From: a virus
DNA length: 44,983 bases
Virus record (IMG/VR): IMGVR_UViG_3300031251_000041
Coordinates: 1 to 44,983 of that record
Direction: 5' to 3' (one strand)
Shown: positions 1 through 44,983 of the stretch, one piece after another
How the letters are laid out: each line of letters begins with the position of its first letter
Numbering within the stretch: position 1 is the first letter of the stretch
The notes under the pieces: generated by a model
What the model saw: the letters and a program-made list of their open reading frames with translations, nothing else
What the model was told of the DNA's origin: nothing
Databases searched by the model: none
Translations under genes and position numbers: made by a program

Positions 1-1256
1 TGCGTGCGTTGTTCCTGTTTGCGAATGGCGAACCCATCGGCACCGAGGGCATCTACTGGCTCAAGATGCACGTGGCGAACTGCGGTGACTTCAACAAGAT
101 CGGCAAGCGACCGATAGAGGAGCGCATCAAGTGGGTGGACGACAACATCGACCTCATACGCGACTACGTGAAGCGCCCCCTCTATGCAACGGGATGGACG
201 CAAGCGGACTGTCCGTTCCTATTTCTTGCGTCGTGCCGGGAGCTTGTGAGTGCCGTAGACGCGGGGCCTACATACGTCACCCGACTGCCTGTGAGCTTCG
301 ATGGCAGCTGCAGCGGCATTCAGCACCTCGCTGCGATGACGCGGGCACCCGAGGGCCGCTACGTCAACCTGACTGACACGCCTGAACCGCAAGACGTTTA
401 CCAGCTCGTGGCGGACCAGGTTAAATCCAGGATTGAGGCGGACGAAGAGAACCCCGTGCTGCGCAAGCAGTGTCTCGACTATGGCATCAACCGCTCCGTA
501 GTTAAGCGCAACGTGATGACGTTTGCTTATTCGAGCAAGGTCTTCGGCATGGGGCAGCAGCATCTTGAGGACCTCATGGAGCCGTTGAAGCTCAAGGTTC
601 TCAAGAAGGAGCTGGAGGTTCACCCATTTGGTGACGACGAGGGCTACGCCGCTGCGCGATATCTCGCAAAGCACACGCACGCAGCCATCGTTGAACTTGT
701 GCGCCTACCTGCGCAGGCAATGGCGTTCCTGCAGGCTTGCGCGCGAGCGTTGGCTCACGAAGGTAAACCTCTGCGTTGGACGACCCCCGCAGGCATCCCG
801 TGGATCAATCGCTACCACGACGCCACGGTGCAGCGTGTCGAGTTGTGGCTGAACGACCACGGCGTCAAGACGCGCACACGTATCACGGTGGCCACAGGCT
901 CCGAGACTGAAATCTCGAAGGACAAGGTGGCCGCTGGCGTAAGTCCAAACTTCGTTCACGCCAACGACGCTGCACATCTGCTGCTGACTGTAGGGGCAGC
1001 GCGCGACGAAGGCATCACTGACATCGCGACGGTTCACGACAGCTTCGGTTGTCATGCATCACACGCTGGTCGCTTCAACCAAATCATCAGGGAGCAATTC
1101 CTGAAGATGTACACGGACCACGACGTGCTCGCTGAGTTGCTTGCGAGCGCGAAGGCTGACCTGACACCAGCCAACCACCATCGGCTACCCGAGCTGCCCG
1201 AGAAGGGCGCACTAGACCTCAAGGAAATCCTGAATGCCAAATATGCCTTCGCGTGA
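1..1256 (+). CDS. T7-type single-subunit RNA polymerase, C-terminal part
   Basis: Phage DNA-directed RNA polymerase, the enzyme that transcribes middle and late phage genes from phage-specific promoters. The coding frame enters the window at base 3, and the N-terminal part lies at the right end of the window. Visible catalytic motifs: motif A FDGSCSGIQH (metal-binding Asp), motif B RSVVKRNVMTFAYSSK (Lys and Tyr of the O-helix), motif C VHDSFG (second metal Asp), and the family C-terminus ending FAFA. The stretch aligning to the T7 specificity loop (around RVELWLNDHG) differs from T7, and the position of T7 N748 appears to be Glu, so a non-T7 promoter sequence is expected. Merging the 8-base end overlap gives about 821 aa, against 883 in T7. 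Family assignment is certain; the promoter remark is inference. Confidence 0.97.
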   Translation, partial: RALFLFANGEPIGTEGIYWLKMHVANCGDFNKIGKRPIEERIKWVDDNIDLIRDYVKRPLYATGWTQADCPFLFLASCRELVSAVDAGPTYVTRLPVSFDGSCSGIQHLAAMTRAPEGRYVNLTDTPEPQDVYQLVADQVKSRIEADEENPVLRKQCLDYGINRSVVKRNVMTFAYSSKVFGMGQQHLEDLMEPLKLKVLKKELEVHPFGDDEGYAAARYLAKHTHAAIVELVRLPAQAMAFLQACARALAHEGKPLRWTTPAGIPWINRYHDATVQRVELWLNDHGVKTRTRITVATGSETEISKDKVAAGVSPNFVHANDAAHLLLTVGAARDEGITDIATVHDSFGCHASHAGRFNQIIREQFLKMYTDHDVLAELLASAKADLTPANHHRLPELPEKGALDLKEILNAKYAFA

Positions 1257-3302: not shown

Positions 3303-3820
3303 TGCAGCACATCCACATGAGCACGGGCTTCCTGTTCGTGCTCGCGCTGTTCGTCGTCGGCCTCGTGGCTGTGATCCTCGCGTATCGGGCGAGCGTCAAG
3401 CGTGACCGTCTTCTGGCCGAGCGCTTCGAGATGGACAGCGATGTCTCCCCGCGCCCGTACAGGGAACATCTCGCGTATCCGCACGCCGAACCGAGTGCAG
3501 CAGACGTCGCTGCGTTCGAGCGTCACTATGCCCCGCGCACTGCGCCCCCAGCGCCTGCGTACCAGACGTTTGCACCAGTAGCGCCGGTGTACACCCACGA
3601 CCCTATGTCTGGCCTAGCGACCGGAATGATCCTTGGCTCCGCGTTGAGCCATCACGACCACACCACGACCATCATCAACAACGACACGCCGTCACACCAC
3701 AGCGTGGATAGCTCGTCGTCGTCGTCCTACTCGCCGTCAAGCGACAGCGGCTTCAGCTACGACAGCGGAAGCTCCTCGTACGACAGCGGTTCCTCAGGTG
3801 GCTTTGACGCCTCCTTCTGA
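3302..3820 (+). CDS. Membrane protein with Ser/His-rich tail, 172 aa
   Basis: Predicted single-pass membrane protein. Residues about 7-28 form a strong transmembrane helix (FLFVLALFVVGLVAVILAYR). It is followed by a basic stretch, a Pro/Ala-rich middle, a His/Thr cluster (SHHDHTTTIINND) and a low-complexity Ser/Tyr/Asp/Gly tail ending GGFDASF. The ATG overlaps the previous TGA. The His cluster could bind metal, but no function is recognised. Confidence 0.75.
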   Translation: MQHIHMSTGFLFVLALFVVGLVAVILAYRASVKRDRLLAERFEMDSDVSPRPYREHLAYPHAEPSAADVAAFERHYAPRTAPPAPAYQTFAPVAPVYTHDPMSGLATGMILGSALSHHDHTTTIINNDTPSHHSVDSSSSSSYSPSSDSGFSYDSGSSSYDSGSSGGFDASF

Positions 3821-4419: not shown

Positions 4420-4871
4420 TGGCTAATCCTGCATTGTCGCTTGAGCCTGCTTTTCGAAGTGGACTTGAGCGGCGTGTCGCAGAGCAGCTCGACAAGGCCG
4501 ACGTAGCGTTCCTATTCGAAGACGATTGGGTTCACTACGTCGTCCCTGAGCGCAATGCGAAGTACCTACCAGACTTCAAGTTCGAAGGCACCAACATCAT
4601 CATCGAGGCCAAGGGTCGCTTTGGTGGTGCGTGGCGCGGAAGCGATAAGGGCGCTGAAGAGCGTCAGAAGCTGATCCTGCTCAAGGAGCAACACCCTGAG
4701 CTGGAGATACGCATCGTCTTCGAACGAGCATCCACACCAATCTACAAGGGCAGCAAGACCACCTACGCAAAGTGGGCGGACACGCACGGCTTCAAGTGGG
4801 CCGACAAAGGCACTGTGCCTGCGGATTGGATCAAAGAGCTTCAACAATCCAAAACTGAGAAGAGGAAGTGA
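4419..4871 (+). CDS. Endonuclease I (Holliday junction resolvase, T7 gp3-like)
   Basis: Structure-specific endonuclease that resolves branched DNA and helps degrade host DNA. All key residues of the T7 enzyme are seen: Glu17 in RSGLE, Asp52 in YLPDF, and Glu63/Lys65 in IIEAKG. The downstream segment EQHPELEIRIVF and the block ADKGTVPADWIKE also match the family. Length 150 aa, against 149 in T7. It sits between the ssDNA-binding protein and a helix-turn-helix gene. Confidence 0.96.
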   Translation: MANPALSLEPAFRSGLERRVAEQLDKADVAFLFEDDWVHYVVPERNAKYLPDFKFEGTNIIIEAKGRFGGAWRGSDKGAEERQKLILLKEQHPELEIRIVFERASTPIYKGSKTTYAKWADTHGFKWADKGTVPADWIKELQQSKTEKRK

Positions 4872-4873
4872 CT

Positions 4874-5359
4874 ATGAAGATTGGCGACAAGGTTATCTCC
4901 CGCGAGTACGCGAACAATAACGTCACCCCTGCTTGGACCTATGGCCTCACAGGCACAATCATTCCCGACGAATACCACGCAGGCAAGCCGTACTGGCTGG
5001 TGCGGTTCGACAGGGATGAGGCTTACGAGGCTGGTCACGGGCGTTTCAAAAACGAGTGGTTTGTCCGCGCCTCGATGCTGGAACTGGTGAAGGACAACAC
5101 CATCACCATCGGCACCCCGACGCTCGCGGGTGACCTGCGGCTCACTCCTCAGACGCGCAAAATCCTCGCGCACCTCGAAGAGGGCAAGTCGATCACGAAC
5201 AACGAGAGCATGTTGGTCTACCACATCTATCGTTTGTCGGACTGCATCTTCAAGCTCCGCAAGGCGGGCTACAACATCGACCTGACGATGAAGGAAGATG
5301 GCGTTGGCGGCAAGTACGCCAGCTACAAGCTCGTGAAGCCCGTAGCTCTCGCTGCGTGA
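4874..5359 (+). CDS. Phage protein with C-terminal winged-helix-like domain, 161 aa
   Basis: Unnamed protein. The N-terminal half (residues 1-75) resembles a small SH3-like beta barrel (IGDKVISREYA, TIIPDEYHAGKPYWLVRFD). The C-terminal half looks like the phage winged-helix module (ILAHLEEGKSITNNESMLV and HIYRLSDCIFKLRKAGYNI). The ATG at 4874 was chosen because AAGAGGAA lies 7 bases upstream; an upstream GTG at 4868 overlaps the previous stop but has no room for a ribosome site. Likely DNA-binding, role unknown. Confidence 0.75.
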   Translation: MKIGDKVISREYANNNVTPAWTYGLTGTIIPDEYHAGKPYWLVRFDRDEAYEAGHGRFKNEWFVRASMLELVKDNTITIGTPTLAGDLRLTPQTRKILAHLEEGKSITNNESMLVYHIYRLSDCIFKLRKAGYNIDLTMKEDGVGGKYASYKLVKPVALAA

Positions 5360-22325: not shown

Positions 22326-22403
22326 TGGTCTGTGTGGCAGGATTTGAACCTGCGGCCCCCTGTGCCCAAAACAGGTGCTCTGGCCGTGCTGAGCTACACA
22401 CAG
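22326..22403 (-). tRNA. tRNA-Pro (UGG) with encoded CCA
   Basis: Complete cloverleaf on the minus strand. Acceptor stem CTGTGTG pairs with CACACAG (7 bp); D-arm is GCTCAGCACGGCCAGAGC. The anticodon arm is CCTGT-TTTGGGC-ACAGG with anticodon TGG. The T-arm is GCAGG-TTCAAAT-CCTGC. Discriminator A and CCA are encoded. It sits between an unknown gene and the adaptor gene, within the virion operon. Confidence 0.95.
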
Positions 22404-37193: not shown

Positions 37194-38189
37194 TTATCCG
37201 AGGCGAATGATCCAGCCCACGGCCATTGAAGGCTGCACGTTGTTGTGCGCGCCGCCGCCGCCAGTGTTGGCATCCGTGGTGTCTAGGTTGCTCGATGCGT
37301 CACGCACGCGCACGCCTGTCGCTGCGTAGCCCGTTGAAGTGGTCTGCGGAACATAACCATAAATGCCACCGTTTCCGTACCCATACCCGCTGGCGATGCC
37401 ACCTGCGGTGTCTGAATGATAGTGTTGGGGATCGTAGATGTACGCAGGATGCTTGTGCGCAGGGATTTGCGCAGACGTCAGCGTGTTGGTGTCAGCTCCG
37501 AAGAGTGACCCAAGGACACCCTTGAGGCCCGAGGAAATAGAGGCAAGCAGACCGGGTGACGTTGCACCACCCATTCCACTTTTGCCGACAGGAGTGACCT
37601 CCTGCATATTCGGCACACCCATCGTGGTGACGCCGTTGCCACCGTACTTGGAGCCCCAGCGCGCGAGCAGCACAGGGCACACAGTGTTGGCAGAAGAAAT
37701 GATTTGGCCGTTCGCCCAGCACCACATGCCATCAGCGGGGAGCGTGTCATCGAACCACAGCACGCCAGCGCCGAGCGGCGTCATACCTGGGCCACTGATG
37801 AGGCCCGTGGACGTGAGGGTTCCTGAGTTCGTCAGGTTGCCGAAGTTCTTCAGCGTGTTGACGCTGAGGGACTGCGTGAACGTGGCAGCAATTGCACCCT
37901 GCAGTTTGACGTCGATGTCACCTGCGAGGATGTTCTGGAAACCGTCAGTCGGGTTCGTGTTGAAGAACGTGCCTGCCGAGGCTAGCAGCGTGGCACCAGA
38001 GGTCGCAGCAGCACCAGCCGCATTGAGAGCCGTGTGGGTCGCGGTGACAGCCCCGGTGATATTGGGGAACGTGGTCTTGATGGTGCCCTTGATCAATCGG
38101 GCGTGAGCGTCGTCGTTGTTCAGACCATCTGAGTGGGCTGGGTACGCCGGGTTCAGGTCCGAGATGTAGGTAGCAGTTTCTAAGGGCAA
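37194..38189 (-). CDS. Tail fibre with phage collar domain, 331 aa
   Basis: First gene of the minus arm. N-terminal part with sites suggesting trimeric fibre (TGAVTATHTALNAAGAAATS). The C-terminal half is a tail-collar domain: GVLWFDDTLPADGMWCWANG, RWGSKYGGNGVTTMGVPNM, then HKHPAYIYDPQHYH and ARRR-free Gly-rich end GGGGAHNNVQPSMAVGWIIR. Collar domains occur in short fibres that contact receptors. Confidence 0.87.
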   Translation of the reverse strand: MPLETATYISDLNPAYPAHSDGLNNDDAHARLIKGTIKTTFPNITGAVTATHTALNAAGAAATSGATLLASAGTFFNTNPTDGFQNILAGDIDVKLQGAIAATFTQSLSVNTLKNFGNLTNSGTLTSTGLISGPGMTPLGAGVLWFDDTLPADGMWCWANGQIISSANTVCPVLLARWGSKYGGNGVTTMGVPNMQEVTPVGKSGMGGATSPGLLASISSGLKGVLGSLFGADTNTLTSAQIPAHKHPAYIYDPQHYHSDTAGGIASGYGYGNGGIYGYVPQTTSTGYAATGVRVRDASSNLDTTDANTGGGGAHNNVQPSMAVGWIIRLG

Positions 38190-38201
38190 CCGTGGTGTCC
38201 G

Positions 38202-38220
38202 AAGGTGAAGCGCGGCGAGC
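38202..38220 (-). repeat. Copy 2 of the 19-bp element upstream of a tail gene
   Basis: Minus-strand GCTCGCCGCGCTTCACCTT, 13 bases upstream of the collar-fibre ATG. It pairs with the copy at 37096-37114. The only two copies found both precede minus-strand tail genes. Confidence 0.55.
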
Positions 38221-38628
38221 CGAGCGGATTGTGGCGGGAATAAGAGGCATCAAACGGCCTCTAGGGCATAAGTGGGTGGGGTCCGCCACTAACCTATTGA
38301 TATCAAACGATAAGTGCTGAAATGTGCCCCAATGGGGCCACAATGGTATCCTGATGGGACCCTTGGCCGGCGCAGGGCGCGCGTAGGGGACCCGCTGGGT
38401 TCGAGAACGCAGCAGTCCGAACCCCGGCAGCGGCGGCGGCGTTTAGTCCGATATTTTGAAATCGGGCCGGCCAGCTTTTCTGGGAATGTAGGGGGCAAAA
38501 GGGGACCCAAAAATCCCACGCGCCTTCCCACGCCAGCCCGTAAGCCGTTGATATCCTGCGTCATTCATGGGTTGCGACAACCGTTGACGCATGGCGCACA
38601 AGGGGCACAGGATGGCACGCGGGCACTG

Positions 38629-38644
38629 TGTGACATTGGTCACA
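38629..38644. promoter_or_regulatory. TGTGA-N6-TCACA palindrome 1 (CRP/Clp-like)
   Basis: TGTGACATTGGTCACA is a perfect match to the CRP/Clp half-site arrangement TGTGA-N6-TCACA. First of three sites within 72 bases. Confidence 0.7.
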
Positions 38645-38654
38645 TACCTGGCTG

Positions 38655-38671
38655 TGTGACGTCAGGTCACA
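38655..38671. promoter_or_regulatory. TGTGA-N7-TCACA palindrome 2
   Basis: TGTGACGTCAGGTCACA, with arms extending to GTGTGAC/GTCACAC, but spacer one base longer than the CRP consensus. Centre about 26.5 bases from site 1. Confidence 0.65.
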
Positions 38672-38684
38672 CTGGTCGCCCTTG

Positions 38685-38700
38685 TGTGATGTACGTCACA
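38685..38700. promoter_or_regulatory. TGTGA-N6-TCACA palindrome 3
   Basis: TGTGATGTACGTCACA, again the exact TGTGA-N6-TCACA arrangement, centre about 29.5 bases from site 2. The CATATAGGG element lies 31 bases downstream. Confidence 0.7.
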
Positions 38701-38924
38701 GAAGTGAATGGCCGGGTGGAAAAAAGCTCGCATATAGGGTTGCCCCGGCCCATGGCGACCTAGCGCGGCCTCGTGGTGCGTTAGTTTCCATTCCCGCACC
38801 CTTGGCACCCAATGCCACCTAGGCCGCTCCTTGGCCTTCCTACGGCTTCCCCGGTTTCCCATGCCCCGTAGCGTTTTTGCATACCTGCGTTGCTCGAATG
38901 GCTGTCATTTGTGCTGCATTTTGC

Positions 38925-38954
38925 TTGACGTTGTTTTCGAACGCGCGCCATATG
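38925..38954 (+). promoter_or_regulatory. Candidate sigma-70 early promoter
   Basis: TTGACG (5 of 6 to the -35 consensus), 18-base spacer, CATATG as a poor -10. It lies about 55 bases upstream of the first early gene, where a host-polymerase promoter is needed. Weak by sequence. Confidence 0.4.
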
Positions 38955-39008
38955 CGGCACAGATGGCAGGCAATGACGTCGCGCCACACACGCACAAGAG
39001 GCAAGCAA

Positions 39009-39221
39009 ATGGTTACGTTTCATCCCGCCGCACGCAAAGTCAGCAACGGTTTCCTGCCGTCCGTCATGGTTCGCGCTGAGCAGGGCCGCATGGTTGGCAG
39101 CAAGGTTTCACAGGTTGGCAACGTGTTTGCGACCGCTGAGGAGGCCAAGGCGTTCGCGATGCAAGCGGCGTTGCGCGTGGTCGCATCCTATCCCGACACA
39201 ATGCGCGTTTGCGCGGCTTAA
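39009..39221 (+). CDS. First early protein, 70 aa, unknown
   Basis: First gene of the plus arm, ATG preceded by AAGAGG. Product with beta-rich N-terminal half (FHPAARKVSNGFLPSVMVRA) and a helix at the end (EEAKAFAMQAALRVVASYP). Unrecognised. First early genes often counter host defence or reprogram the host, but nothing here shows that. Confidence 0.7.
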   Translation: MVTFHPAARKVSNGFLPSVMVRAEQGRMVGSKVSQVGNVFATAEEAKAFAMQAALRVVASYPDTMRVCAA

Positions 39222-39252: not shown

Positions 39253-40008
39253 ATGACCAAAGCAACCAAAGCTCCTAACGGTTTCATCTTCTATCGTGGT
39301 CCGTCGATGCTTGACGGTTCTCCTATCATCGCAATCGCAACAGGGACGGCGCGCGGCTCACGCAATGCCAAGACGGGAAGCGAAGTGCAAACGTGGATCA
39401 TGCGGGACGATATGTCGCCCGTGGAAGCTGTGAAGACAGGCGCTGATAGCGCGATATGTGGCACGTGCGTTCACCGTGGCGTCAATGGTGTAGGCCGCTC
39501 TTGCTACGTCACCGTGTTCCAAGCGCCTTTGGTTGTGTGGAAGTCCGCGCAGCGTGGCTTGTATCCAACCATTACGCGGCGCGCTGATCTGCGTTTGTCT
39601 ATGGACGGCAAGACGGTGCGCCTTGGCTCTTATGGCGACCCTGCGGCCGTCCCTGCCGAAGTGTGGAATGATCTAGTCTACGCCGCTGTAGGACACACGG
39701 GCTATACACACCAATGGCGCACTAGTGACGCGTTGCGCTCATTGTGTATGGCCTCATGCGATAGCGCATTTGAGCAAGAGTTAGCCGCCGCGCAAGGCTG
39801 GCGCACGTTCCGCGTAATGCGAAGCGGGGAAGCATTGGCCCCGCGTGAAATCAGCTGCCCTGCGTCAAAGGAAGCTGGCGCTAAGACGCGTTGCGAGTTG
39901 TGCAAGGCGTGCGGCGGGACAAGCGCCAAGGCAAAAATCAATATCGCAATTCTGGCGCACGGCGCGGCCAGCAAGGTGAACGCATTCAACAATGAAAGGG
40001 CCGCGTAA
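39253..40008 (+). CDS. Cys-rich phage protein (DUF7227/gp88-like), 251 aa
   Basis: Recognised by pattern, from memory, as the conserved phage family with AICGTCVHRG and RSCYVTVFQAPL at residues about 70-100. The conserved core LGSYGDPAAVPAEVWNDL ... GYTHQW follows. Near the C-terminus come ISCPASKEAG and TRCELCKACGG. The six or more Cys suggest one or two metal (Zn or Fe-S) sites. It has no known function. ATG 39253 lies a few bases after GTGGCATCACA; the stop overlaps the ATG of the next gene (TAATG). Confidence 0.75.
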   Translation: MTKATKAPNGFIFYRGPSMLDGSPIIAIATGTARGSRNAKTGSEVQTWIMRDDMSPVEAVKTGADSAICGTCVHRGVNGVGRSCYVTVFQAPLVVWKSAQRGLYPTITRRADLRLSMDGKTVRLGSYGDPAAVPAEVWNDLVYAAVGHTGYTHQWRTSDALRSLCMASCDSAFEQELAAAQGWRTFRVMRSGEALAPREISCPASKEAGAKTRCELCKACGGTSAKAKINIAILAHGAASKVNAFNNERAA

Positions 40009-41769: not shown

Positions 41770-42138
41770 ATGGCTGAGAAGTTTAGCGATGATGAGAAAG
41801 ACGCGGCACGGGCACTGTTGGCTGCTCTTGAGCCGTTCCGAGCACTACGGCCCACAATGCCGCTTCAGTACGTCTACCTGTTCCTGACCGTCGTCCTTGA
41901 TGAGGGAAAGACTGTCAGCGAATACGCCACAATGACCAACACGCCACCCACGGTCATGACGCGGCACCTGCTCGAAATCGGGGACCGCACACGCTCCCAC
42001 GACGCCGGCCTTGGCCTCGTGCAACAGAAGGCTGACGTGATGGACCTGAGGAAGCACAGGGCCACCATAACCACCCTTGGCAAGGCCACCATGCACAAGG
42101 TCCGCAACGCGCTCCACCCGCTGCGTAAGAAGGCATAA
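41770..42138 (+). CDS. Winged-helix (MarR-like) regulator, 122 aa
   Basis: The order of elements fits a MarR-type winged helix: LQYVYLFLTVVLDEGKTVSEYA, MTNTPPTVMTRHLLEIGD (recognition helix region), a wing with MDLRKHRATITTLGKATM, and a C-terminal helix. ATG 41770 preceded by GGAG. It is the only obvious regulator near the integrase gene and could control the integrase/early block; which DNA it binds is unknown. Confidence 0.75.
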   Translation: MAEKFSDDEKDAARALLAALEPFRALRPTMPLQYVYLFLTVVLDEGKTVSEYATMTNTPPTVMTRHLLEIGDRTRSHDAGLGLVQQKADVMDLRKHRATITTLGKATMHKVRNALHPLRKKA

Positions 42139-42410: not shown

Positions 42411-43496
42411 ATGGCATACGCTGAGAAACGAGACGGCAAGCTCACGGGCCGCTGGTACGGCGAGGTGATCTACAAGGAGCGCAACGTGGCTCCTGTGCGC
42501 TACCGCCGCGCCTTCGATACAAAGAGAGCCGCCGAGGGCTATGAGGCCTACGTGAAGGCCACAGGCATTGAGCCCCCTGATCTGGACGGTGCGAAGCTCA
42601 CAGGCCTGACGTTCGCACAGGCCGCAGAGAAAGCCCGCGCTGCCTCTGACGTATGGAAGCGAGGCCGTGACCCCAGCGGCCAGAAGCGGCTAGACTACAT
42701 CATCGCGCGTATCGGGCAGCTGCCTCTCGAACAGGTGACGACCGAGGAGCTGGACAAGATTGTCGCGCTGCTCTCTGCGCGCCCCGCCAAGTCTGGAGGT
42801 GGAAAGCTGAGCGCCGGGACCATCAACCGATACCTGACGTTCGCCAGCGCCGTGCTGACGTTCTCTGAGGAACGCGGGCTGCTCAAGAAGGGGCCTGTGA
42901 TCCCGTGGTTGCACGAGGACGGCCACCGCATCCATTGGCTCACTGAGGAGCAGGAGACCACCGTGGTGCGCTGGCTGATCGAGCAGGGGCACTTGACCAC
43001 CGCGAACATCGTGCGCGTCCTGTGTGCCTCAGGGCTGCGCTGGGGCGAGTTCGAAGGGCTTGAGGTGTATCAGGTGACGATGGGTGCCGAAGTGGCATGG
43101 ATCAAGCTCGACAAGACCAAGACGGATAGCCCCCGAGATGTGCCTATCGACCCCGAGCTGGCAGCGCTGCTGCGGGCGATCCTGAGCGCCAACTCGCCCC
43201 GCGATTACCGCACAATCCGCAGCCAATTTGGTGACGCGATAAAAGCGTGTGGGTATGCGCCACAACTGACGCTCCACTGCTGCCGTCATACAACCGCAAC
43301 GCGACTGATCAAGAAGAAGACGCCGTTGCCAATTGTTCAGCAATTCATGGGACATAAGAGCATCCAGACCACGCTGAAGTACGTTCACGTCGAGAGTGAC
43401 GACCTCGCGGAAGCCGCAAAAAATCTTTACCCACAGCGTGGGAAATCAACAGAAAGCGAGGCTATACCTGGAGTGGTTGCTTTCAAGAAAGCCTGA
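42411..43496 (+). CDS. Tyrosine recombinase (integrase)
   Basis: 361-aa site-specific recombinase. Catalytic residues seen: Arg210 (ASGLRWGEF), Lys in KLDKTKTDSPRDV, His289 and Arg292 (HCCRHTTATRL), His315 (MGHKSIQTTL) and Tyr324 (KYVH). N-terminal arm-binding and core-binding parts precede them. It lies directly upstream of a tRNA-Cys-like half gene and RNA polymerase, the same order reported for T7-like phages of marine hosts that carry integrases. Likely integrates at a tRNA-Cys gene. Confidence 0.95.
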   Translation: MAYAEKRDGKLTGRWYGEVIYKERNVAPVRYRRAFDTKRAAEGYEAYVKATGIEPPDLDGAKLTGLTFAQAAEKARAASDVWKRGRDPSGQKRLDYIIARIGQLPLEQVTTEELDKIVALLSARPAKSGGGKLSAGTINRYLTFASAVLTFSEERGLLKKGPVIPWLHEDGHRIHWLTEEQETTVVRWLIEQGHLTTANIVRVLCASGLRWGEFEGLEVYQVTMGAEVAWIKLDKTKTDSPRDVPIDPELAALLRAILSANSPRDYRTIRSQFGDAIKACGYAPQLTLHCCRHTTATRLIKKKTPLPIVQQFMGHKSIQTTLKYVHVESDDLAEAAKNLYPQRGKSTESEAIPGVVAFKKA

Positions 43497-43517
43497 TGTT
43501 ACAGGCACTTCTCATGG

Positions 43518-43565
43518 GGCCACGTGGCGGAGTGGTTACGCAACGGTCTGCAAAACCGCTTCGTC
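43518..43565 (+). other. Putative attP: 5' half of a tRNA-Cys (GCA)
   Basis: The sequence starts GGCCACGTGGCGGAGTGGTT and continues ACGCAACGGTCTGCAAAACC-GCTTCGTC, matching bacterial tRNA-Cys from the acceptor stem through the anticodon arm (loop CTGCAAA, anticodon GCA). No T-arm or matching 3' acceptor strand follows, so it is not a working tRNA. The outer anticodon-stem pair is A-C, a mismatch. Placement 22 bases after the integrase stop makes an attachment site the best explanation. Confidence 0.65.
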
Positions 43566-43635: not shown

Positions 43636-43765
43636 CAGCCCCCTAATCCAGCACAAACGGCAGATACCACCTACGCGGCATCAAATGCCGTAATATCAAC
43701 GGCTTAGACCAAACTGTCACCCTCTACTGCCCTAAGCGGCATTCAAAAACGGAGCGCTCCCAACG
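43636..43765 (+). promoter_or_regulatory. Leader region of the RNA polymerase gene
   Basis: 130 bases between the terminator and the polymerase ATG. Contains the palindrome GGCAT-CAA-ATGCC (43677-43689) and the GGAG ribosome site at 43751. The promoter must be here if the terminator works, but no good -35/-10 pair is visible. Confidence 0.4.
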
Positions 43766-44983
43766 ATGGACACCGAAGCTCTTAGTGATACCAATGTTCT
43801 ACCTATTGAACTGGAGAAGGCTTCTCTCAAACTTGAGAAGCGCAACGAGAGGGCCTTCGATAACGCAGGCTTCGGGGCGACCACAGGCGGGCTTGCTATT
43901 ACAGCCCAGCATCTCGACAAGCTGATCACAGCTGTAGTTGCCAAACTAGCCTCTCCCAGCGCCAGCACCTCAGAACACTACAAGCTTGAGCGTGTCATAC
44001 GCCAGCTTCAGCCCGAGGTCATTGCTCTGGCTACCCTGCAAGGTGCTCTGCACTCAGTGGCCCTGCAGGACACCCTGAGGGACACGTATATCCTGATCGG
44101 GAAAATGATCTGTGATGAGTGCTGGGCCGCAAAGCTAACCCACACCGATAAGCGGCTCGCTGGTAAGATAAACCGCGCCGTCAAGGCCTCACACGGTTCT
44201 GTGGACGTACGCCGATCAGCGGCCCGCGCTATGGCTTACAAGGCGGGCTTCATGATGAAGCACTGGACGCTTGTGCAGATGGTGCATGCAGGCAACTGGT
44301 GTCTTAGTCTGCTACTCGACACGTTGCCTGAGGTCTTTGAGCTGGTTGCTGGGCGCAATCGCGAAGACGCACTGACCATCACTGCAGGGGCCTTGCATAT
44401 TGCAGAGAACGCGGTGGCACAGGCTGTCATCAAGAACCCTGTGTACCAGCCCCGTGTCACCCCGTGTATCCCGTGGACGTCCTTCTCGCAGGAAGTGTCC
44501 GAGAGGGTGACTGTGGGCACCTCTGTGCTGCGCACGTTCCACAAGGACATCATCGCGTCTGGGCGTCACGCCATCAAGACGGGGCAGATGCAGCCTGCAC
44601 TAGACGGCATCAATGCACTGCAGTCTGTGCCGTATGTGATCAACACGTGGATCATGAACGTCATTCAGAAGGCCTACGAGGCAGGGATTAGCGTGGCCGG
44701 CATGCCTATGCGTGACGACATGAAGCTTCCTCCGAGGCTCAGCGAAGATCAGTACCGCGCCATGACCACAGGCGAGACCGTAGTCCGCAGCAAGGAAATT
44801 GCGGCGATACGCAAGGTCAACCGGAGCCTCATTGGCGAGCGATTGCTGTTCAAGGAGGACATGGAAACCGCCCAGCGGCTGGCACCACATGAGCACTTCT
44901 ACGTGCCCATGAATATGGATTGGCGGGGGCGCGTATATGGCATCACGTATTTCAACTTCGCCCGCGAGGACAGGGTGCGTGCG
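43766..44983 (+). CDS. T7-type RNA polymerase, N-terminal part
   Basis: 406 codons in one open frame up to the window end. ATG 43766 with GGAG 11 bases upstream. The end contains FYVPMNMDWRGRVYGITYFN, matching T7 PYNMDWRGRVYAVSMFN around residue 420. Continuation is at base 9 of the window start after removal of the 8-base shared end. The N-terminal domain is divergent from T7, as usual in distant relatives. Confidence 0.95.
   Translation, partial: MDTEALSDTNVLPIELEKASLKLEKRNERAFDNAGFGATTGGLAITAQHLDKLITAVVAKLASPSASTSEHYKLERVIRQLQPEVIALATLQGALHSVALQDTLRDTYILIGKMICDECWAAKLTHTDKRLAGKINRAVKASHGSVDVRRSAARAMAYKAGFMMKHWTLVQMVHAGNWCLSLLLDTLPEVFELVAGRNREDALTITAGALHIAENAVAQAVIKNPVYQPRVTPCIPWTSFSQEVSERVTVGTSVLRTFHKDIIASGRHAIKTGQMQPALDGINALQSVPYVINTWIMNVIQKAYEAGISVAGMPMRDDMKLPPRLSEDQYRAMTTGETVVRSKEIAAIRKVNRSLIGERLLFKEDMETAQRLAPHEHFYVPMNMDWRGRVYGITYFNFAREDRVRA

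Follow-up and report, generated by a model that had tools for sequence, protein, structure and literature searches.

A triple TGTGA/TCACA palindrome array, a candidate set of host CRP/Clr-type sites, upstream of a putative early promoter in a temperate T7-like phage

Three closely spaced TGTGA/TCACA palindromes lie between the two divergent gene arms of a T7-like phage, and the question they raise is which protein, if any, reads them. A preliminary description of the window (the whole stretch of DNA analyzed, 44,983 nucleotides) had offered three candidates: host cAMP-CRP, a Clp-like protein, and a phage repressor that uses the same half-site. We weighed these candidates against the gene map, the probable host, the promoters around the array, the control regions of related phages, and the use of the same site form in host genomes.

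Results

The DNA analyzed belongs to a temperate T7-like phage. Its record is circularly permuted, and for this reason the RNA polymerase gene is divided between the ends of the window. The genes and the attachment site needed for the argument are as follows.

3..1256, + strand: single-subunit RNA polymerase (RNAP), C-terminal part, second half of phrog_414
37194..38189, − strand: tail gene, first of the structural arm
39009..39221, + strand: first early gene, 70 aa, product without assigned function
41770..42138, + strand: MarR-like transcriptional regulator, phrog_9665
42411..43496, + strand: tyrosine integrase
43516..43558, + strand: attP core, 43 bp identical to Bradyrhizobium tRNA-Cys
43766..44983, + strand: single-subunit RNA polymerase, N-terminal part, first half of phrog_414

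The T7-like character that had been assumed for this phage was borne out by the single-subunit RNAP and the T7-type primase-helicase and DNA polymerase, which are accompanied by an integrase. The plus strand also encodes an exonuclease, endonuclease I, and a Gp2.5-like protein; terminase, portal, scaffold, capsid, tail proteins, and endolysin are encoded on the minus strand. The genome is not unidirectional as in T7, the structural arm of the window phage, like that of its syntenic relatives, lying on the opposite strand. The integrase and MarR-like regulator genes stand before the RNAP gene, so that, as in temperate T7-like phages, a MarR-like regulator is found beside integrase and RNAP, and attP matches a host tRNA gene. 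As the phage is temperate, an input from host status is plausible. DNA-level BLAST with the window gave no match among named phages.

The attP core, located downstream of the integrase gene, equals the 5′ half of the Bradyrhizobium tRNA-Cys gene. The exact 43-mer was present in 28 of 41 Bradyrhizobium genomes, and in an order-wide sample of 101 genomes a 30-bp core was found in two, G007 and G042, both of which also belong to the Bradyrhizobium genus sample. Because the attP core equals the tRNA-Cys of this genus, we infer that the host is Bradyrhizobium or a very close relative. A related intact prophage with the same divergent layout was found in Bradyrhizobium sp. BR 10289 by an alignment scan, having been missed by a single-protein scan of the genome contigs. 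With Bradyrhizobium as host, the Clp-like protein of the preliminary description was ruled out as binder and controller, Clp being a protein of Xanthomonas. A conserved host TGTGATCTCTTTCACA site was observed 0.8-2 kb from the tRNA-Cys attB (G007:C12:39162 and 39988), with a similar arrangement in G121 and G109; this is probably a coincidence.

The array itself consists of three sites.

38629..38644: site 1, TGTGACATTGGTCACA, TGTGAC-ATTG-GTCACA, an exact TGTGA-N6-TCACA
38655..38671: site 2, TGTGACGTCAGGTCACA, TGTGAC-GTCAG-GTCACA, a TGTGA-N7-TCACA
38685..38700: site 3, TGTGATGTACGTCACA, an exact TGTGA-N6-TCACA adjoining the P1 core

Sites 1 and 3 have the N6 form of CRP/Clr sites and site 2, with its N7 spacer, does not; the arms of site 2 extend to 7 bp (GTGTGAC/GTCACAC, 38654-38672). 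The palindromes were found exactly as they had been described, with no further TGTGA-N6-TCACA having 0 or 1 mismatch elsewhere in the 45-kb window, and they are far beyond chance: in first-order Markov simulations of the window, exact sites with N5-8 spacers were expected at 0.285 per 45 kb, and three same-arm dyads within 100 bp arose in 0 of 100 simulated windows. Matches with two mismatches (14 more in the window) were not above chance. The location of the array between the divergent arms was likewise confirmed; it occupies a gene-free region of ~820 bp (38190-39008), at one edge of which the tail gene (37194-38189) runs leftward, while at the other edge the first rightward gene has its ATG at 39009. 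The centers of the sites are 26.5 and 29.5 bp apart, that is, 2.5 and 2.8 turns, and hence the array is without helical phasing and its sites do not share one helix face.

The surroundings of the array, together with the region upstream of the RNAP gene, contain the following features.

38289..38303, − strand: candidate phage-RNAP promoter ATATCAATAGGTTAG, towards the structural arm
38540..38554, − strand: candidate phage-RNAP promoter ATATCAACGGCTTAC, towards the structural arm
38558..38590, no strand: hairpin GCGTCA...TGACGC with inner GGTTG/CAACC, read by eye
38701..38739, + strand: P1, promoter-like core GAAGTGAATGGCCGGGTGG...CATATAGGG, single-copy and conserved
38803..38817: candidate MarR operator TGGCACCCAATGCCA, between P1 and P2
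38925..38953, + strand: P2, putative sigma70-like promoter TTGACG-N17/18-CATAT, upstream of the first early gene
43676..43690: candidate MarR operator CGGCATCAAATGCCG, beside the phage promoter upstream of the RNAP gene
43691..43707, + strand: candidate phage-RNAP promoter TAATATCAACGGCTTAG, upstream of the RNAP gene, with a motif copy at 43693

P1 is the putative first early host-type promoter. Its −35 element is weak in this phage; its core occurred once, in the same place, in each of several relatives tested, and site 3 lies directly upstream of it. Relative to the predicted P1 start near 38743, the centers of the sites fall at about −50, −80, and −106, which do not look like canonical activator positions. 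TTGACG elements like that of P2 were also present in relatives. Exact GGCA-N5-TGCC palindromes, which look like MarR operators and have the form of the two candidates listed above, numbered 3 genome-wide versus 0.5 expected, and matching palindromes stood near the early and RNAP genes of the Bradyrhizobium prophage. Such palindromes near early and RNAP promoters were seen in the window, L285, and L263. For phage LUZ100, a model in which MarR sites lie on either side of the RNAP promoter has been discussed (PMC10134795); the positions of GGCA-N5-TGCC fit that model and set the MarR system apart from the TGTGA array.

The motif ATATCAAYGGSTTAG was found, with at most one mismatch, in three copies, at 43693 on the plus strand and at 38540 and 38289 in the leftward direction; the two leftward copies were observed in some relatives too. 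The TGTGA sites bear no resemblance to this motif, and we rejected them as phage-RNAP promoters. Hairpins occupied the place equivalent to 38558..38590 in several relatives.

To judge conservation we used syntenic relatives with ~50-70% protein identity to the window phage. TGTGA-N-TCACA was absent from the control region of every one of them, the Bradyrhizobium prophage included. Loss of the sites from close relatives had been named beforehand as one half of the outcome that would refute the original proposal, and on this half the result was adverse. L250 has a TGTGA-N5-TCACA at 2436, ~1 kb from its core at 3469. Palindromes as such were frequent next to the core: six of ten phages, the window among them, had a 5-bp-arm palindrome within 32 nt upstream of it, compared with a mean of 1.5 after shuffling (P=0.0025; the ten include one near-duplicate pair, L215 and L232, neither of which is a positive). 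The sequences differed and included CTTAGTCACTAAG, TGAGCATTGCTCA, and GTTATAGTATAAC; TGTGCGGATCAGTACA, common to several relatives at the position of site 3, is an imperfect palindrome with the same ends. These findings are suggestive of a regulator docking site upstream of the core whose sequence may change between phages. In the equivalent part of its control region (3547-3590), L232 has two ATACGCgagtGCGTAT palindromes ~28 bp apart, and the near-identical L215 has none.

The divergent layout of structural and early arms was found in many metagenomic relatives. L004-L013, L084, L215-L262, and the window were observed to make up a clade of temperate T7-like phages with structural genes opposite the early genes; in this analysis its members come from metagenomes, apart from one Bradyrhizobium prophage. 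A search of viral contigs with a structural protein gave no match. Tandem TGTGA-N6-TCACA pairs were seen in at least 120 viral-contig stretches, including L093-L172; perhaps other phages also carry sites for host CRP, or some of the collected contigs are host DNA.

The site form was then counted in the host genus. Summed over per-genome tables for 41 Bradyrhizobium genomes, TGTGA-N6-TCACA occurred 719 times, the N7 form 64 times, and a reversed N6 control 21 times. Bradyrhizobium uses the N6 form, on which the genome-wide excess falls, and makes hardly any use of the N7 spacing seen in site 2. G007 had 18 N6, 3 N7, and 1 N8 sites, and six of ten G007 sites examined were outside all ORFs of at least 120 aa. 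The RE...K/R recognition helix of E. coli CRP reads TGTGA. Among 20 Crp-family helix-turn-helix matches over the cut-off in G007, two proteins had CRP-like recognition helices, MTRESINKQL and AARESVNRQL (RExxNK and RExxNR); RESINK and RESVNR helices were found in the BR 10289 genome, and the actual host strain of the phage may differ from it. The best PDB match of the MTRESINKQL protein was M. tuberculosis CRP (E 3e-41), in line with the grouping of Bradyrhizobium and Sinorhizobium CRP homologues with Actinobacteria (PMC5449483); the binding motif of M. tuberculosis CRP resembles that of E. coli CRP (PMC4117774). The host genus therefore has candidate CRP-family readers of N6 sites. Control by host cAMP-CRP, as first proposed, thus stood in part: the N6 form of the host genus, its CRP-type helices, and the position of the array upstream of a promoter-like core speak for it, and the N7 site, not a host form, and the lack of conservation among syntenic relatives speak against it.

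Discussion

Our preferred interpretation is that the palindromes are host CRP/Clr-type sites, peculiar to this lineage, beside the early promoter. That these are Bradyrhizobium CRP/Clr-family sites upstream of P1, coupling early (lytic) transcription to host metabolism, we hold with slightly better than even confidence. We propose that a cyclic-nucleotide-responsive host CRP/Clr-family protein would bind sites 1 and 3, and perhaps site 2 weakly or cooperatively; once bound it would modulate P1, so that early transcription would follow the metabolic state of the host. Binding at the array, activity of P1, the direction of control, and a part in the choice between lysis and lysogeny are inferred. 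As the estimated positions of the sites look non-canonical and the sites do not share one helix face, repression or multi-site occlusion would be as likely as activation. A CRP-like protein encoded by the phage was rejected as the binder, as Pfam or PHROGs scans of phage ORFs detected none in those covered. A wider proposition is that a temperate T7-like phage of a nitrogen-fixing symbiont recently acquired the triple site and thereby placed its early promoter, and hence its lysis/lysogeny choice, under the control of a cyclic-nucleotide receptor of the host, within a clade whose docking position changes rapidly; it is tentative, and we lean against it.

It is unlikely, although the case deserves attention, that the palindromes are operators of a phage-encoded immunity repressor or activator whose TGTGAC half-site resembles the host form by coincidence, with operators that differ among relatives as regulator specificity does in heteroimmune phages. 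Differing palindromes upstream of the core in six of ten phages (P=0.0025) and the paired ATACGCgagtGCGTAT palindromes of L232, ~28 bp apart in the same stretch, would be expected of such a regulator, and three operators ~27-30 bp apart resemble a repressor array. The lambda OR operator array has three palindromes 20-30 bp apart beside promoters, and ours likewise has three beside a promoter with similar spacing; it differs in having no adjacent repressor gene and a half-site that matches a host regulator. That half-site, moreover, is the one for which the host genome shows enrichment. Only one regulator was recognized nearby, the MarR-like protein; its helix PTVMTRHLL hardly varies between the window, L005, L084, and L248, whereas the element upstream of the core differs or is absent. 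The GGCA-N5-TGCC palindromes near the early and RNAP promoters are a better fit for this protein. Because it has these separate candidate operators, we consider it a less likely binder of the TGTGA sites, and the suggestion of a phage repressor with this half-site lost ground accordingly.

Two further explanations look beyond both CRP-type proteins and phage regulators. Each site can fold into a stem of 6-7 bp closed by a loop of 4-5 nt, the longest stem belonging to the N7 site, and the region holds other hairpins, so that the array might be a structural element, either three hairpins in a leader RNA or a replication or packaging element that needs dyads. We regard this as distinctly improbable: transcription from P1 is predicted to start downstream of the array, the TGTGA arm sequence is kept three times, which folding alone would not require, relatives of the same organization lack the array, and in the fold predicted for this stretch parts of one site pair with parts of another. 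More improbable still is another, non-CRP host factor that recognizes TGTGAC inverted repeats with N4-N5 spacing. The N7 site TGTGACATCAAGTCACA recurs in many Bradyrhizobium genomes, and the hexamer form with N5 spacing may be preserved by a factor or constraint of some kind, but this recurrent site looks like one orthologous locus and the genome-wide excess is on N6.

Among known systems, control of a phage switch by host CRP is not new in itself: in E. coli phage T1, cAMP-CRP controls prophage induction (pir promoter; PMC6737242). Host CRP-cAMP acts directly on T1 promoters, and T1 thus reads the metabolic state of its host. T1 is, however, an unrelated phage whose control was established by experiment, whereas what is seen in the window phage is sites, which are near-perfect, clustered, and upstream of an early promoter of a T7-like phage. 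The core motif of S. meliloti Clr is GTNNCNNNNGNNAC (PMC10127613), to which site 1 is an exact match and site 3 a match with one mismatch; the published 16-mer consensus HGTYHCNNNNGRWACA has Y where the window sites have G, and site 2 is spaced otherwise. LUZ100, as far as the part of its description used here extends (PMC10134795), shares with the window phage an integrase, a MarR-like regulator, and a single-subunit RNAP whose gene is immediately preceded by a candidate phage promoter. It differs in that its annotated part runs in one direction, whereas the structural genes of the window phage are opposite the early genes, and in that this part reports no sites like the host-CRP-type sites of the window's divergent region. 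A limited literature search turned up no temperate T7-like phage whose control region carries host-CRP-type sites.

If host CRP/Clr-type control is correct, this would be a testable case in which the first promoter of a T7-like phage responds to the carbon or symbiotic (cAMP) status of the host, with a hint that one promoter-proximal position has been re-wired to different regulators across a phage clade. A divergent-arm temperate T7-like clade, known in this analysis mainly from metagenomes, would also gain a host and a candidate map of its control region.

Three minor observations concern genes elsewhere in the window. A phage-borne tRNA-Pro (TGG) gene lies on the minus strand at 22326-22403, in the structural arm. 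A winged-helix HTH_39 protein encoded at 4868-5359, in the middle gene region, is a possible further regulator and is not linked to the sites. At 39253-40008 a phrog_2554 protein, its function unassigned, has matches in more than 500 viral-contig stretches (47-79% identity in the best 80 of these), which is unusually widespread for an early gene.
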